The notes below the pieces were generated by a model. It did no database searches and was not told the DNA's origin. It worked only from the letters and a program-made list of their open reading frames with translations. This document shows positions 16,315-23,052 of a stretch of 64,000 bases of DNA, one piece after another (position 1 is the stretch's first letter; every line of letters starts with the position of its first letter). Where the stretch lies: the NCBI RefSeq assembly GCF_002895005.1, contig NZ_POWF01000002.1, positions 248,001-312,000 of the forward strand, read 5' to 3'. The DNA is from Hanstruepera neustonica (GTDB lineage: Bacteria; Bacteroidota; Bacteroidia; Flavobacteriales; Flavobacteriaceae). The position numbers and the translations under genes were made by a program.

Positions 16315-16353
16315 TGACACTTTGTCACTGTTTTGAAAATAATCGTAACTTTG
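16315..16353 (+). promoter_or_regulatory. Promoter with TGACA-N3-TGTCA palindrome before miaB
   Basis: A perfect palindrome TGACA-CTT-TGTCA (16315-16327) covers the TTTG (16321-16324) that forms the -33 element; TAACTTTG (16346-16353) follows after 21 bases and matches TAnnTTTG. A regulator bound to the palindrome would block or touch the polymerase site. A near copy lies before groES. The leader then holds a short GCCC...GGGC hairpin at about 16359-16375. Confidence 0.65.
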
Positions 16354-16435
16354 CAACCGCCCGTAATTTCTGGGCATAGAAATTGACAATCCAATATATC
16401 ATTATTATGGATTTCAGTAAATTTTGAAAATGACT

Positions 16436-17881
16436 ATGGAGAAGGTTATAGACGAATCAAAACAAGGACAAAGTCTACATTTAGAAGCTAAAAAAGAAAA
16501 CAGCAGAAAGCTATTTATTGAAAGTTATGGCTGTCAAATGAATTTTAGTGATAGTGAAATAGTAGCTTCTATTCTTTCAAATGAAGGGTTTAATACAACC
16601 CAAAATCTTGAAGATGCCGATTTGGTATTGGTAAATACCTGTTCAATTCGAGATAAGGCCGAACAAACTGTGCGCAAGCGTTTGGAAAAATACAATGCTG
16701 TAAAAAAGATTAACCCAAAAATGAAAGTTGGGGTTTTAGGCTGCATGGCTGAACGTTTAAAAAGCAAATTTTTAGAAGAAGAGAAAATTGTTGATTTAGT
16801 GGTTGGACCTGATGCCTACAAGGATTTACCCAATTTACTTTCGGAAGTTGAGGATGGCCGTGAAGCAATAAATGTCATTCTATCTAAAGAAGAAACCTAC
16901 GGAGATATTTCACCTGTGAGATTAGATTCCAATGGTGTTACGGCATTTGTTTCCATTACCAGAGGATGTGATAACATGTGTACCTTTTGTGTGGTACCAT
17001 TCACTAGAGGTCGTGAACGCAGTAGAGACCCTCAAAGTATTATTGAGGAAGTCAATGATTTATGGAATAAGGGTTACAAGGAAATCACGTTATTAGGTCA
17101 AAATGTAGATAGTTATTTATGGTACGGTGGTGGACTTAAAAAAGATTTTGAAAAAGCCAGCGATCTTCAAAAGGCGACGGCTGTTAATTTTGCCAAGCTA
17201 TTAGATATGTGCGCAACGGCTCAACCCAAAATGCGTATACGTTTTTCTACATCCAACCCACAAGATATGACCATGGATGTTATAGAAATTATGGCTAAAC
17301 ACAATAACATCTGTAAATACATTCATTTACCAGTACAAAGCGGTAGTAATCGTATTTTAAAGGAAATGAATCGTCAACATACGCGTGAGGAATACTTCAA
17401 ACTTATTGACGATATTAAAAACTTAATTCCTGATATTGCTTTTAGTCAGGATATGATTGCAGGTTTCCCCACTGAAACCGAAGCCGATCATCAGGATACG
17501 TTGAGTCTTATGGAATATGTAAAATATGATTTTGGATTTATGTTTGCCTATTCCGAAAGACCAGGCACATTGGCCGAACGCAAGATGGAAGATGATGTTC
17601 CCGAAGCTACAAAAAAACGTCGTTTACAGGAAATCATCGAATTGCAGCGCCAACATGGACATTACAGAACCCAGCAACACTTGGGCAAGATTGAAGAAGT
17701 CTTGATTGAAAAAGAATCCAAGCGTTCTGACGCTCATTGGTCTGGCAGAAATACCTATAATACGGTGGTGATTTTCCCAAAAGAACATTATCAAGTGGGC
17801 GATTTTGTAAATGTCCAAATAACTGATTGTACCACAGCCACGCTTTTAGGTGAAGCCGTTGGTTATTCTGAAAACAATTAA
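16436..17881 (+). CDS. miaB: tRNA-2-methylthio-N6-dimethylallyladenosine synthase MiaB
   Basis: MiaB is a radical-SAM enzyme that adds a methylthio group to i6A37 of tRNAs, which helps codon reading. The 481-residue protein shows the N-terminal UPF0004 domain (FIESYGCQMNFSDSE, with two further conserved cysteines) that holds the auxiliary iron-sulfur cluster. The radical-SAM triad is in RGCDNMCTFC, and a C-terminal TRAM domain follows. I chose the ATG at 16436 (MEKVIDES) because it fits family N-termini; an ATG at 16430 is also possible. It opens a plus-strand run with the sigma-54 activator, 2 bases apart. Confidence 0.95.
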   Translation: MEKVIDESKQGQSLHLEAKKENSRKLFIESYGCQMNFSDSEIVASILSNEGFNTTQNLEDADLVLVNTCSIRDKAEQTVRKRLEKYNAVKKINPKMKVGVLGCMAERLKSKFLEEEKIVDLVVGPDAYKDLPNLLSEVEDGREAINVILSKEETYGDISPVRLDSNGVTAFVSITRGCDNMCTFCVVPFTRGRERSRDPQSIIEEVNDLWNKGYKEITLLGQNVDSYLWYGGGLKKDFEKASDLQKATAVNFAKLLDMCATAQPKMRIRFSTSNPQDMTMDVIEIMAKHNNICKYIHLPVQSGSNRILKEMNRQHTREEYFKLIDDIKNLIPDIAFSQDMIAGFPTETEADHQDTLSLMEYVKYDFGFMFAYSERPGTLAERKMEDDVPEATKKRRLQEIIELQRQHGHYRTQQHLGKIEEVLIEKESKRSDAHWSGRNTYNTVVIFPKEHYQVGDFVNVQITDCTTATLLGEAVGYSENN

Positions 17882-17883
17882 TT

Positions 17884-19146
17884 ATGGAATCCGTTCAAGC
17901 TATAAAACAACGTTTTGGCATTATTGGTAACGACCCAAGTTTAAATCGTGCCATTGAAAAAGCTATACAGGTAGCTCCAACCGATATTTCGGTTTTAGTT
18001 ACCGGTGAATCTGGTGTTGGTAAAGAAAGTATTCCAAAAATTATCCATCAGCTTTCGCATAGAAAGCATGGCAAATACATTGCGGTAAACTGTGGAGCGA
18101 TTCCTGAAGGCACCATTGATAGTGAATTGTTTGGTCACGAAAAGGGGTCTTTTACAGGAGCCACGCAAACGCGTTCTGGCTATTTTGAAGTAGCCGATGG
18201 CGGAACCATTTTCCTGGATGAAGTTGGTGAATTACCATTAACAACTCAAGTACGTTTATTGCGTGTTCTCGAGAATGGTGAGTTTATAAAAGTTGGCTCC
18301 AGTAAAGTTCAAAAAACCAATGTACGCATTGTGGCTGCAACCAACGTCAATATGTTTGAGGCCATAAAAAAGGAAAAGTTCCGTGAAGATTTATATTATC
18401 GTTTAAGTACCGTTGAAATTCACTTGCCGCCATTACGCGACCGTAAAGAAGACATTCATTTACTTTTTAGAAAATTTGCCAGTGATTTCGCTCTTAAATA
18501 CAAAATGCCAACCATCAAATTAACGGATGATGCGGTCCATCTATTATTAAAACATCGTTGGAGCGGTAATATTCGTCAATTACGAAATGTTGCCGAGCAA
18601 ATTTCTGTTTTGGAACAAAATAGAAATATTAATGCTGCCACGCTTCAGGAATATTTACCAAGTGGTTCCAGCAACCTACCTGCTGTCATTAGCACGACCA
18701 AATCAGAAAGTGATTTCAGTAGTGAACGAGAAATTTTGTACAAGGTACTTTTCGATATGAAAAGTGACTTAAATGATTTAAAAAAGCTCACGATGGAACT
18801 CATGAAAAGTGGTAACGTTTCCGAAGTACAAAAACAAAATGAGGGACTGATTCAAAAAATTTATGGTGACGACGAAGAGGATGCTACTGTAGAAGACCTT
18901 GAAGTTCTTTCAATTCCTGAAAAGTCCTCTTCCGAACCCAATTATCAAGAAGCTGAAGAGATTCCAGACAAATACCATTTTGCTGAAGAAATAGAAGAAG
19001 AGGAAACTTTATCTTTACATGACAAAGAATTAGAACTCATTAAAAAATCTTTGGAACGCCACAATGGCAAGCGCAAATTGGCTGCTCAAGAATTGGGCAT
19101 TAGTGAACGTACACTGTATAGAAAGATTAAACAATTTGATTTGTAA
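17884..19146 (+). CDS. Sigma-54-dependent transcriptional activator without a sensor domain
   Basis: A 420-residue bacterial enhancer-binding protein. The AAA+ domain starts almost at the N-terminus: Walker A GESGVGKE (41-48), the sigma-54 contact loop GSFTGA (88-93, a variant of GAFTGA), Walker B TIFLDE. The C-terminal Fis-type helix-turn-helix contains AAQELGISERTLYRKI. There is no receiver, GAF or PAS domain before the AAA+ part, so control must come from another protein or from expression level. Between the AAA+ domain and the HTH lies an acidic insertion (about residues 270-385) rich in Glu and Asp. It sits in the miaB-to-secG run. A sigma-54-like site lies before groES (21061-21076), a possible target. 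Confidence 0.92.
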   Translation: MESVQAIKQRFGIIGNDPSLNRAIEKAIQVAPTDISVLVTGESGVGKESIPKIIHQLSHRKHGKYIAVNCGAIPEGTIDSELFGHEKGSFTGATQTRSGYFEVADGGTIFLDEVGELPLTTQVRLLRVLENGEFIKVGSSKVQKTNVRIVAATNVNMFEAIKKEKFREDLYYRLSTVEIHLPPLRDRKEDIHLLFRKFASDFALKYKMPTIKLTDDAVHLLLKHRWSGNIRQLRNVAEQISVLEQNRNINAATLQEYLPSGSSNLPAVISTTKSESDFSSEREILYKVLFDMKSDLNDLKKLTMELMKSGNVSEVQKQNEGLIQKIYGDDEEDATVEDLEVLSIPEKSSSEPNYQEAEEIPDKYHFAEEIEEEETLSLHDKELELIKKSLERHNGKRKLAAQELGISERTLYRKIKQFDL

Positions 19147-19149
19147 TAC

Positions 19150-19659
19150 ATGAAGACATTCTTAAAATATATATTTATTCCCATCATCAGTTTGACACTT
19201 TTTGGTTGTGGCATTTATTCATTTACTGGTGCTTCCATATCATCAGATGTCAAAACCTTTCAGGTGAATTATTTCCAAAATAGTTCTATGTTGATAGAAC
19301 CAGGTTTGGACCGAGATTTCACGTTGGCTCTGCAAGATTTACTGCTCAATCAAACAAATTTAGATTTGGTAAAATCCAACGGTGATTTAGTTTATGAAGG
19401 TGAAATAACCGAATATAGAATCGCACCAACAACGGCAACAGCCAACAATACAGCTGCTCAAAACCGATTGACCATGTCAGTAAGAGTACGGTTTTTCAAC
19501 AAAAAGAATGAAGAAGATGATTTTGAGCAAAACTTTTCATTTTTCTACGACTACACTGGAAGTAGTTTATTGACGGGAGCAACCAAAGACGCTGCACATG
19601 AAGAGCTTTTTACACGTATAACCCAAGATATTTTTAATGCCTCTTTAGCCAAATGGTAA
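19150..19659 (+). CDS. lptE: LPS-assembly lipoprotein LptE
   Basis: LptE plugs the LptD barrel and helps insert lipopolysaccharide into the outer membrane. The 169-residue protein has a lipobox LFGC (Cys20) followed by GIYSFTGAS, the typical start of Bacteroidota LptE, and a compact alpha/beta domain. It begins 3 bases after the activator gene, so it is in the same transcript. Similarity to proteobacterial LptE is low, and the call rests on the Bacteroidota-type N-terminus and context. Confidence 0.85.
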   Translation: MKTFLKYIFIPIISLTLFGCGIYSFTGASISSDVKTFQVNYFQNSSMLIEPGLDRDFTLALQDLLLNQTNLDLVKSNGDLVYEGEITEYRIAPTTATANNTAAQNRLTMSVRVRFFNKKNEEDDFEQNFSFFYDYTGSSLLTGATKDAAHEELFTRITQDIFNASLAKW

Positions 19660-19660
19660 T

Positions 19661-20614
19661 ATGAATCGTGCTGAATTTTCACATATTGTTCAAAATCCAC
19701 AAGCTGTTTCAAGTAATCATACCGGAACACTTGAGGCCATTATTGAAAAATACCCTTATTTCCAATCAGCTCGAGCAATCTATTTAAAAGCTCTAAAAAA
19801 TGCCGAAAGCTTTGAATATAATGATGCTTTAAAAACAGCTGCAGCCTATACAACAGATAGAAGCATCTTATTTGATTACATAACATCCGATAAATTTGTA
19901 CAAAACGAAATTTCAGAATACATCAAAAAACACACAGACCATATTAAGGATTTAGAAGTTTCAGCAGAAGATGTTTCAGTTGATAAAAGTGTGGTAATTG
20001 ATGCTGCTTTAAAACAACAGATCAAGGATACCGAGCAAATTTTGGATCCCGAATTATTTCAACCAAAGGTTAAAAAATCTAAAATTGTCAATTTTCAATT
20101 GGATGAAAGTGAACCCATTGAAGAGAATTTTGAGACTTCCAATATTAATGAAGATTCTCCTGAAGATATCCTAAAAATTGGCACACCCCTACAATTCGAC
20201 ATTAATGAAAGACATTCCTTTAACGAATGGCTTAAACTAACGCGATTTAAACCTATTGATCGTTCTGAAGAACAAGACAAAACTAACATTCCCAATACAG
20301 AAGAAAATACCATCCAAGCTGATGAGCGCAGCAAAAAGTTTGATCTTATTGACAATTTTTTAAGTAAAAACCCAAAGCTTAAACCAGAAAAAACACAGAC
20401 CAAAAATGTCAATTTAGCAGAGGAGCAAATGATACAACCCGAAGCTTTGATGACAGAAACTTTGGCGCGTATTTATGTTGAGCAAAAGAACTACAAAAAA
20501 GCTATTCAATCTTATAAAATTTTAAGTTTGAAATATCCAGAAAAAAGTGGTTTCTTTGCAGACCAAATTAAAGCAATAAAACAATTACAAGAACAAAATA
20601 ATAAAGAACAATGA
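19661..20614 (+). CDS. Cytoplasmic TPR-like protein of unknown function
   Basis: A 317-residue soluble protein. Its N-terminal region (MNRAEFSHIVQNPQ to about residue 90) is helical, with a recurrent 'YPYFQSARAIYLKAL' segment. The middle is acidic and low in complexity, and the last 50 residues form a tetratricopeptide-like helix pair (ETLARIYVEQKNYKKAIQSYKILSLKYP, in part). No enzymatic motif is visible. It starts 1 base after lptE and overlaps secG by 4 bases (ATGA), so its translation is coupled to both. The conserved place next to lptE and secG suggests an envelope-related role, but this is inference. Confidence 0.7.
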   Translation: MNRAEFSHIVQNPQAVSSNHTGTLEAIIEKYPYFQSARAIYLKALKNAESFEYNDALKTAAAYTTDRSILFDYITSDKFVQNEISEYIKKHTDHIKDLEVSAEDVSVDKSVVIDAALKQQIKDTEQILDPELFQPKVKKSKIVNFQLDESEPIEENFETSNINEDSPEDILKIGTPLQFDINERHSFNEWLKLTRFKPIDRSEEQDKTNIPNTEENTIQADERSKKFDLIDNFLSKNPKLKPEKTQTKNVNLAEEQMIQPEALMTETLARIYVEQKNYKKAIQSYKILSLKYPEKSGFFADQIKAIKQLQEQNNKEQ

Positions 20615-20967
20615 GTACGTTTACAATATTTTTAGCCTTAATAGTTGTTGTAGCATTTTTATTAGTGGTAGTAATCATGGTACAAAATCCTAAAGGTGGT
20701 GGTTTATCGTCATCTTTTGGTGGTGGTGGCACACAGCAACTAGGTGGTGTTAAAAAAACAACAGACTTTTTAGACAAAAGTACTTGGACATTAGCAACCT
20801 TAATGTTAGTATTGATTTTACTATCTAATGTTGCAATTAACAGAGGTTCAGGTAATGCCGAATCTAAAGCTATTGACAATATCAATACTACAGAGCAACC
20901 GGTTGTCCCTGCAACAACGCCAGCTCAAACTGAAAATACAGGTGCAGTTAATGATTCTGCGAAGTAA
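20611..20967 (+). CDS. secG: Preprotein translocase subunit SecG
   Basis: SecG is the small accessory subunit of the SecYEG channel. The 118-residue protein has two transmembrane helices flanking the conserved loop VQNPKGGGLSSSFGGGG, followed by a Gly/Ala/Thr-rich C-terminal tail typical of Bacteroidota SecG. It overlaps the upstream gene by 4 bases and is followed by a terminator, making it the last gene of the miaB run. Confidence 0.93.
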   Translation: MSTFTIFLALIVVVAFLLVVVIMVQNPKGGGLSSSFGGGGTQQLGGVKKTTDFLDKSTWTLATLMLVLILLSNVAINRGSGNAESKAIDNINTTEQPVVPATTPAQTENTGAVNDSAK

Positions 20968-20985
20968 TTTTATATTGAAAACACT

Positions 20986-21015
20986 AAAAAGCCGACAGTT
21001 TTGTTGGCTTTTTTT
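20986..21015 (+). terminator. Terminator after secG
   Basis: Stem AAAAAGCCGACA / TGTTGGCTTTTT with one G-U pair and a loop GTTT, ending in a T run. It separates secG from groES. Confidence 0.9.
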
Positions 21016-21035
21016 ATACCCCATTTTTAAGCAAG

Positions 21036-21076
21036 TGAAAATTTGTCAGTCTCTTTCTATTGGCACATTTTTAGCT
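21036..21076 (+). promoter_or_regulatory. Sigma-54-like promoter with upstream palindrome before groES
   Basis: TGGCAC-ATTTT-TAGCT (21061-21076) has the GG and GC pairs exactly 10 bases apart and differs from the -24/-12 consensus TGGCAC-N5-TTGCW by one base. Thirteen bases before it lies TGAAA-ATT-TGTCA (21036-21048), one mismatch from the TGACA-N3-TGTCA palindrome found before miaB. There is no CIRCE element. It is about 50 bases from the groES ATG. Confidence 0.55.
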
Positions 21077-21124
21077 TAACACCTATTCGTAAAACAAGTT
21101 TAATTAATCAAAACAATATAAAAA

Positions 21125-21400
21125 ATGGCATTAAACATTAAACCATTAGCAGATCGCGTTTTAATAGAGCCTGCTGCTGCTGAAACTAAAACAGCATCCG
21201 GAATTATCATTCCTGACAACGCCAAAGAAAAACCGCAACAAGGTAAAGTGATGGCCGTTGGAAAAGGAACCAAAGACGAACCAATGACAGTGAAAGTTGG
21301 TGATAATGTGCTTTATGGAAAATATGCTGGAACTGAGTTAAAGTTAGAAGGCAAAGACTATTTAATTATGCGAGAGAGTGACATTCTTGCAATTGTTTAA
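21125..21400 (+). CDS. groES: Co-chaperonin GroES
   Basis: GroES caps the GroEL folding chamber. The 91-residue protein has the family length and motifs: [11 protein letters not shown] at the N-terminus, the mobile loop [19 protein letters not shown], and the C-terminal [13 protein letters not shown]. It starts 110 bases past the secG terminator and is followed after 23 bases by groEL. The upstream region holds a sigma-54-like site. Confidence 0.97.
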
Positions 21401-21411
21401 TCATCATTTAA

Positions 21412-23052
<1,641 letters not shown>

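Follow-up and report, generated by a model that had tools for sequence, protein, structure and literature searches.

The groESL locus

The window, by which we mean the whole stretch of 64,000 nucleotides analysed, comes from contig C9 of a 3.05 Mb Flavobacteriaceae assembly whose closest named relative, judged by the activator described below, is Hanstruepera ponticola (best segment 94% identical). The genes for miaB, a sigma-54 activator, lptE, an unnamed protein and secG are followed by a terminator-like hairpin and then by groES and groEL. The features on which the argument draws are these:

16315..16327, strand not assigned: palindrome TGACA-CTT-TGTCA, proposed autorepression operator of the miaB-activator operon (family and class conservation)
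16321..16353, forward strand: sigma-A-type miaB promoter, with TTTG at 16321-16324 and TAACTTTG at 16346-16353, 21 apart
16430..17881, forward strand: miaB, first in the proposed operon (PF00919, PF04055, PF01938)
17884..19146, forward strand: sensor-less sigma-54 activator (AAA+ at residues 13-180, lid 185-263, insert 264-380, Fis-type HTH 381-418)
19150..19659, forward strand: lptE (PF04390)
19661..20614, forward strand: 317-residue protein, function not known, without Pfam match
20611..20967, forward strand: secG (PF03840)
20990..21016, forward strand: hairpin and T run 3' of secG, terminator-like (read from the sequence)
21036..21048, strand not assigned: proposed activator site TGAAA-ATT-TGTCA, 12 bases 5' of the -24 box (conservation, phasing)
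21061..21076, forward strand: predicted sigma-54 promoter of groESL, TGGCAC-ATTTT-TAGCT (sequence, conservation, class-wide scores)
21125..21400, forward strand: groES (PF00166, E 1.2e-34)
21424..23052, forward strand: groEL (named from a reading of the translation)

A sensor-less sigma-54 activator upstream of groESL

The protein encoded at 17884-19146 combines the AAA+ domain of sigma-54 activators (PF00158, E 2.1e-67) with a DNA-binding HTH (PF02954, E 5.2e-12, residues 381-418). Across 53 activator sequences, the motifs of the ATPase and of sigma-54 contact (GESGxGKE, GSFTGA, GTIFLDE, and FREDLYYRL), which cover Walker A, the GAFTGA-like loop, Walker B, and the arginine fingers, show little or no variation; a further conserved stretch lies past the lid, around SEREILYKVLFDM. 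An AlphaFold2 model (mean pLDDT 75.8) is confident for the AAA+ core and the HTH, places helices at 278-327 with moderate confidence, and leaves 329-376 disordered. Besides seven weak PF00158 matches, the genome encodes three clear sigma-54 activators with a strong match, of which this is the only one with a DNA-binding domain and no receiver; both others join a receiver to AAA+, one lacking an HTH and the other (at L003) possessing one and adjoining a histidine kinase. At L002:1258-2421 (contig C10 of the same genome) a receiver and an AAA+ domain occur with no DNA-binding domain, so that this activator has no site of its own to use and may act from solution.

Of 99 genomes drawn from the class, 95 match the C-terminal part of the neighbouring activator (residues 265-420); no match was found in G036, G050, G052, and G059, the last of which has the groES promoter. 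A Cpn10 match is present in 97 of these genomes and a full-strength groES in 96; in 53 of the 96 the activator lies 1.8-3.9 kb 5' of groES on the same strand. Within the family, a scan for the activator yielded 80 loci, 79 of them with groES downstream (L063, on a contig without groES, was left out), and these 79 Flavobacteriaceae loci together with the window make up the family set of 80 sequences used below for groES.

One palindrome at two promoters

An earlier note on this DNA had reported a perfect TGACA-N3-TGTCA before miaB, in the same run of genes as the activator, and the element is present at 16315-16327. It overlays the -33 TTTG of a sigma-A-type promoter, with no sigma-54 promoter there; the TTTG at 16321-16324 is what we take to be the -33 box. 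The -7 consensus given for such promoters in PMC9723704 is TAnnTTTG. Exact copies of the palindrome occur at four places in the 3.05 Mb (one for the reversed-pattern control); one of the four precedes the activator operon and another precedes dnaK. After removal of one spurious row from an alignment of 81 (L091, whose contig begins past miaB), all 80 usable family sequences have TGNCA-N3-TGNCA before miaB, most commonly as TGACA-CTT-TGTCA (19), TGCCA-CTT-TGTCA (19), or TGTCA-CTT-TGTCA (13). In the family, too, the palindrome overlaps the -33 TTTG, and a -7 box similar to TATCTTTGC comes after it, an arrangement that resembles an operator on a sigma-A promoter.

At class level, 37 of 52 linked loci could be used (miaB adjoining the activator, at least 150 bases upstream), and TGNCA-N3-TGTCA or its complement precedes miaB in 27 of them, against a mean of 0.02 and a maximum of 1 in shuffles. 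The strict palindrome is missing at the remaining 10 of the 37, about half of which have near matches (TGTCATTTTGACA in G004, TGCCAAACTGACA in G009, TGACATATTGTCC in G056, and TGCCAATTTGACA in G072). This conservation and placement suggest that the miaB-activator operon is probably autorepressed through the palindrome. In F. psychrophilum the activator-lptE pair carries an SM5 promoter of its own (PMC9723704), so the miaB operator may govern just part of activator expression.

Upstream of the -24 box of groES, the related TGAAA-N3-TGTCA is found at 21036-21048, as claimed earlier; the gap between the two, put at about 20 bases, actually comes to 12 bases, counted up to the TGG. TG[TG]CA stands 11-13 bases 5' of the -24 box in 79 of the 80 family sequences, joined at N3 to a left half TGxxA in 49 of 80. 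Across the 37 class loci there are 46 copies of the palindrome, 27 before miaB, 17 before groES, and 2 elsewhere, which strongly supports the proposal of a palindrome common to groES and the activator operon.

As to what binds this palindrome, it seems improbable that the groESL promoter is sigma-54 dependent while the site is occupied by some other protein, be it the receiver-type activator at L003 or a regulator unrelated to it, and the neighbouring activator controls other genes. The genome does encode this second activator with a Fis-type HTH; against this, the palindrome lies on the activator's own operon promoter, 44 of its 46 copies in the class loci lie before miaB or groES, and the activator is retained in 95 of 99 class genomes. 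Still harder to credit is the idea that the conservation is real and the palindromes unrelated, the miaB one being a conserved sigma-A -33 region: the -33 TTTG overlaps the right half-site, but the left TGNCA, at a fixed N3 and outside the -33 box, persists throughout the 80 usable sequences of the family and in 27 of 37 class loci (0.02 in shuffles). A chance likeness of the two palindromes was rejected.

The promoter of groESL

Before groES, the TGGCAC-N5-TAGCT with exact -24/-12 spacing that the earlier note had described is present at 21061-21076. A GG at 21062-21063 and a GC at 21074-21075, with 10 bases separating them, form a GG-N10-GC core within a TGGCAY context, and by rule transcription is predicted to start near 21087. 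The element reads TAGC instead of TTGC, and many relatives have GA instead of GC. TTGGCAC-N5-TNGCWT occurs twice in the genome with zero mismatches (the copy not at groES is intragenic) and 43 times with one mismatch versus 12 in the reversed control; 25 of the 30 one-mismatch matches with loci are inside ORFs, and the census is uninformative. The composite TTGTCAG-N11-TGGCAYA-N-TTT-NN-G has a single perfect match in the genome, that at groES.

While TGG[CT]A[CT]A, found in 80 of 80 family sequences, was imposed as the search string, the G 13 bases on was not, and it is likewise found in all 80; positions +8 to +10 are T in 79-80 of 80. All 79 readable Flavobacteriaceae relatives thus have the -24/-12 element, whose absence from relatives would have spoken against the earlier reading. 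For the class, we scored the 300 bases upstream of the 96 groES genes (the window among the sources) with sigma-54 scores and motif weights of our own, built on the sigma-54 consensus. Of the 96, 92 score at least 16.5 (dinucleotide shuffles: 4%), and all 96 pass a laxer limit of 15 (shuffles: 21%); among control regions of the same loci, 2 of 41 before miaB and 1 of 51 before the activator score at least 16.5.

A sigma-A promoter with TTTG of TTTGTCAG at -33, TAATTTCTG (in some relatives) at -7, and an incidental TGG was rejected and is barely conceivable, for although relatives with TGGCATAATTTCTG (e.g. L073) space TTTG and TAATTTCTG about 20 bases apart, 42 of the 80 sequences in the family have C in place of T at the start of the TA, whereas all 80 retain both TGG and the G 13 bases on, the sigma-54 scores hold class-wide though the TTTG distance varies, and an SM4 transcription start site (TSS) is mapped at groESL of F. 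psychrophilum (PMC9723704). The earlier note had allowed for a start at a sigma-A-type box; that published map instead places a sigma-54 promoter at groESL of this relative. The conserved -24/-12 element is almost certainly a sigma-54 promoter.

Helical phasing of the upstream sites

Outside Flavobacteriaceae, the distance between the site and the promoter shifts by whole helical turns, so the site lies outside the core promoter, and TGTCA-N12 was ruled out as part of it. In the class, TGTC is found about 13, 23-24, 34, 44, 54, 65, 75, and 84 bases upstream of the -24 anchor. With the anchor picked from the sigma-54 score alone and one genome taken per genus (73 genera, leaving out the CIRCE-bearing G039 and G079), 134 TGTC sites were observed near the groES -24 box against 28.9 expected, and their phasing with the box has a Rayleigh power of 55.5 at 10.3 bp, compared with maxima of 6.4 in 200 shuffles and 8.9 in 200 anchor jitters. 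AAAA and TTTT are also periodic upstream of class groES, so part of this signal may come from DNA curvature or from the palindrome's A/T centre. Whole-turn shifts are the trace to be expected of a regulator that would be obliged to face the polymerase.

The nearest TGTC lies at 11-14 bases in 15 of the 73 genera and at 19-24 in 18; it is at least 66 bases away in 17, and 4 have none within about 105 bases. The Flavobacteriaceae site abuts the promoter, so action there is probably without a long loop, and the distant nearest TGTC of other genera weakens the case for loop-free action in those. Overall, we give action without looping about an even chance, and a better one in Flavobacteriaceae.

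Two observations may be added. In several relatives (e.g. L073 and L081), the terminator hairpin that precedes groES has TTGTCA or TGACA in its loop, in the same helical phase and some 41-44 bases away from the -24 box. The strongly reduced genome G025 (0.49 Mb, a single contig) has kept a relative of the activator (E 7.7e-18), and its groES (upstream L210) retains a sigma-54-like promoter with no TGTC nearby.

A chaperone regulon

TTGTCA-N12-TGGYAY-N5-TTG, with at most two mismatches, has 59 matches in the genome versus 44 for the reversed control. All 59 were placed, and 11 lie between genes when ORFs are called from 80-90 residues upwards. With gene names taken from translations, they precede htpG (no mismatch), groES, dnaK, and trxA (one each), and grpE and clpB (two each); the five others concern a malic-enzyme-like protein, a lipoprotein-like protein, a secreted protein, a 93-residue membrane protein, and one place without an ORF. 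No such match was found at lon in this genome within two mismatches. Among the best-scoring 30 loci, a non-random choice from the 74 (htpG) and 98 (dnaK) class genomes with a match, an upstream score of at least 16.5 is found in 28 of 30 for htpG and 27 of 30 for dnaK, and TGNCA is phased at both (power 21.1, shuffle maximum 5.4, at htpG; 20.4, maximum 4.4, at dnaK; 200 shuffles). A PF00183 search finds htpG in just 74 of 99 class genomes.

This regulon matches what is known of SM4 promoters in F. psychrophilum, where TSSs with -24/-12 boxes have been mapped at groESL, lon, dnaK, grpE-dnaJ, htpG, and clpB; all but clpB, which belongs to another, form one co-expression cluster (PMC9723704).

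At trxA (L127:1501-1532), TTGTCAG is followed after N12 by TCGCAT-N5-TTTGAC, a -24 box minus one G, and a sigma-A-like TAATTTTG adjoins this box; the promoter is perhaps dual or decayed.

Contrast with HrcA/CIRCE

With at least 14 of 18 letters as the threshold, no CIRCE element stands before groES in the window (best upstream match 10 of 18), which upholds the absence claimed earlier. In the class, CIRCE is absent before groES in 94 of 96 genomes and present, with 17 of 18 letters, in G039 and G079, whose best sigma-54 matches run into it; in these two (L223 and L261, family f40), control by HrcA may have been retained or regained. Outside the class, in 40 of 119 genomes picked to span 24 families and read at their best groES copy only, CIRCE is present in 32. 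Five of the eight without it (G099, G103, G119, G151, and G165) have a strong sigma-54-like promoter, and G135 has such a promoter plus CIRCE. The C-terminal part of the activator matches weakly outside the class (best E 6.4e-14); the best of these weak matches include those in the CIRCE-less G119, G112, and G151 and also in the CIRCE-bearing G123 and G101, and all of the matches listed are more than 30 kb away from the groES copy that was read.

Bacteroidia thus appear, by this comparison, to have a sigma-54 activator circuit where neighbouring classes have HrcA/CIRCE. CIRCE-less groES genes with a strong sigma-54-like promoter occur at L311, L312, and L332-L334 (families f58 and f69, outside the class), possibly reflecting a second origin or a broader spread of sigma-54 control.

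Proposed mechanism

The promoter, the phased sites, the shared palindrome, the regulon, and the CIRCE contrast come out of comparing genomes; binding of the palindrome by the activator, and heat as the signal, we infer. The main proposals of the earlier note, namely sigma-54 control of groESL, the shared palindrome, and the activator as the likely driver, gain strong support from conservation, phasing, the palindrome on the promoter of the activator's own operon, the regulon, synteny (53 of 96), and the lack of CIRCE. That the neighbouring activator drives groESL via the palindrome is, on this sequence evidence, very likely.

In the scheme we suggest, sigma-54 RNA polymerase would transcribe groESL from 21061-21076, and the activator (17884-19146) would bind the TGNCA-N3-TGTCA-family palindrome on the same face of the helix as the polymerase, its HTH tethered through the helical stretch and the disordered acidic stretch, so that its AAA+ ring could open the promoter. 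In Flavobacteriaceae it would probably do so without a long DNA loop. The same activator would also drive dnaK, htpG, grpE, and probably clpB, and would cap its own level by occupying this palindrome where it covers the -33 box of the sigma-A promoter that serves the miaB-activator operon. How stress is sensed is a guess, namely that the chaperones titrate the activator and keep it in check. More tentatively still than the drive on groESL or the autorepression, we entertain a class-wide master chaperone activator that replaces HrcA/CIRCE in Bacteroidia, acts from in-register sites (in some lineages abutting and loop-free), represses itself, and is checked by chaperones, perhaps via the conserved helix from residue 278 between AAA+ and HTH.

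Comparison with known systems

A sigma-54 promoter at these chaperones is already known; the activator assignment, the palindrome, and the phasing are new. In PMC9723704, the F. psychrophilum SM4 promoters are those of the same chaperones, and the part available mentions neither a palindrome nor phasing nor autoregulation. It leaves the SM4 activator open among three PF00158 proteins, lists THC0290_0733 as a sigma-54 regulator adjoining lptE and four locus tags from groES, and reports induction on blood agar and by osmotic stress, plasma, and freshwater, heat not being among them. Sigma-54 promoters are also reported as enriched at groES, groEL, dnaK, dnaJ, grpE, and ibpA in Bacteroidota (PMC12316311); the part of that study available is promoter prediction only, naming no activator or activator site and drawing no CIRCE contrast. 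The main text of BtModulome (PMC12596196) lacks the terms chaperon, RpoN, and GroE. A search of open-licence papers found none in which the activator is assigned or the palindrome described. Our reading names one protein and one DNA site, testable jointly, where the flavobacterial TSS map left the activator open, and it concerns a class that includes major gut, soil, and marine bacteria.

There is also a likeness to PspF of the phage-shock response, which also consists of AAA+ and HTH without an N-terminal sensor, serves a stress response, and is negatively autoregulated at its own promoter. The activator scores below the cut-off of the NCBIfam PspF equivalog TIGR02974 (273.7 bits against 443.55), and it differs in an insert of about 117 residues before the HTH, in having chaperones as its targets, and in sites much closer to the promoter. 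HrcA/CIRCE, a repressor system, shares the control of groE and a feedback loop; HrcA represses, whereas an activator is proposed here. Finally, textbook sigma-54 enhancers are distant and looped, unlike the layout described here, which is phase-locked to the promoter and in some lineages abuts it.
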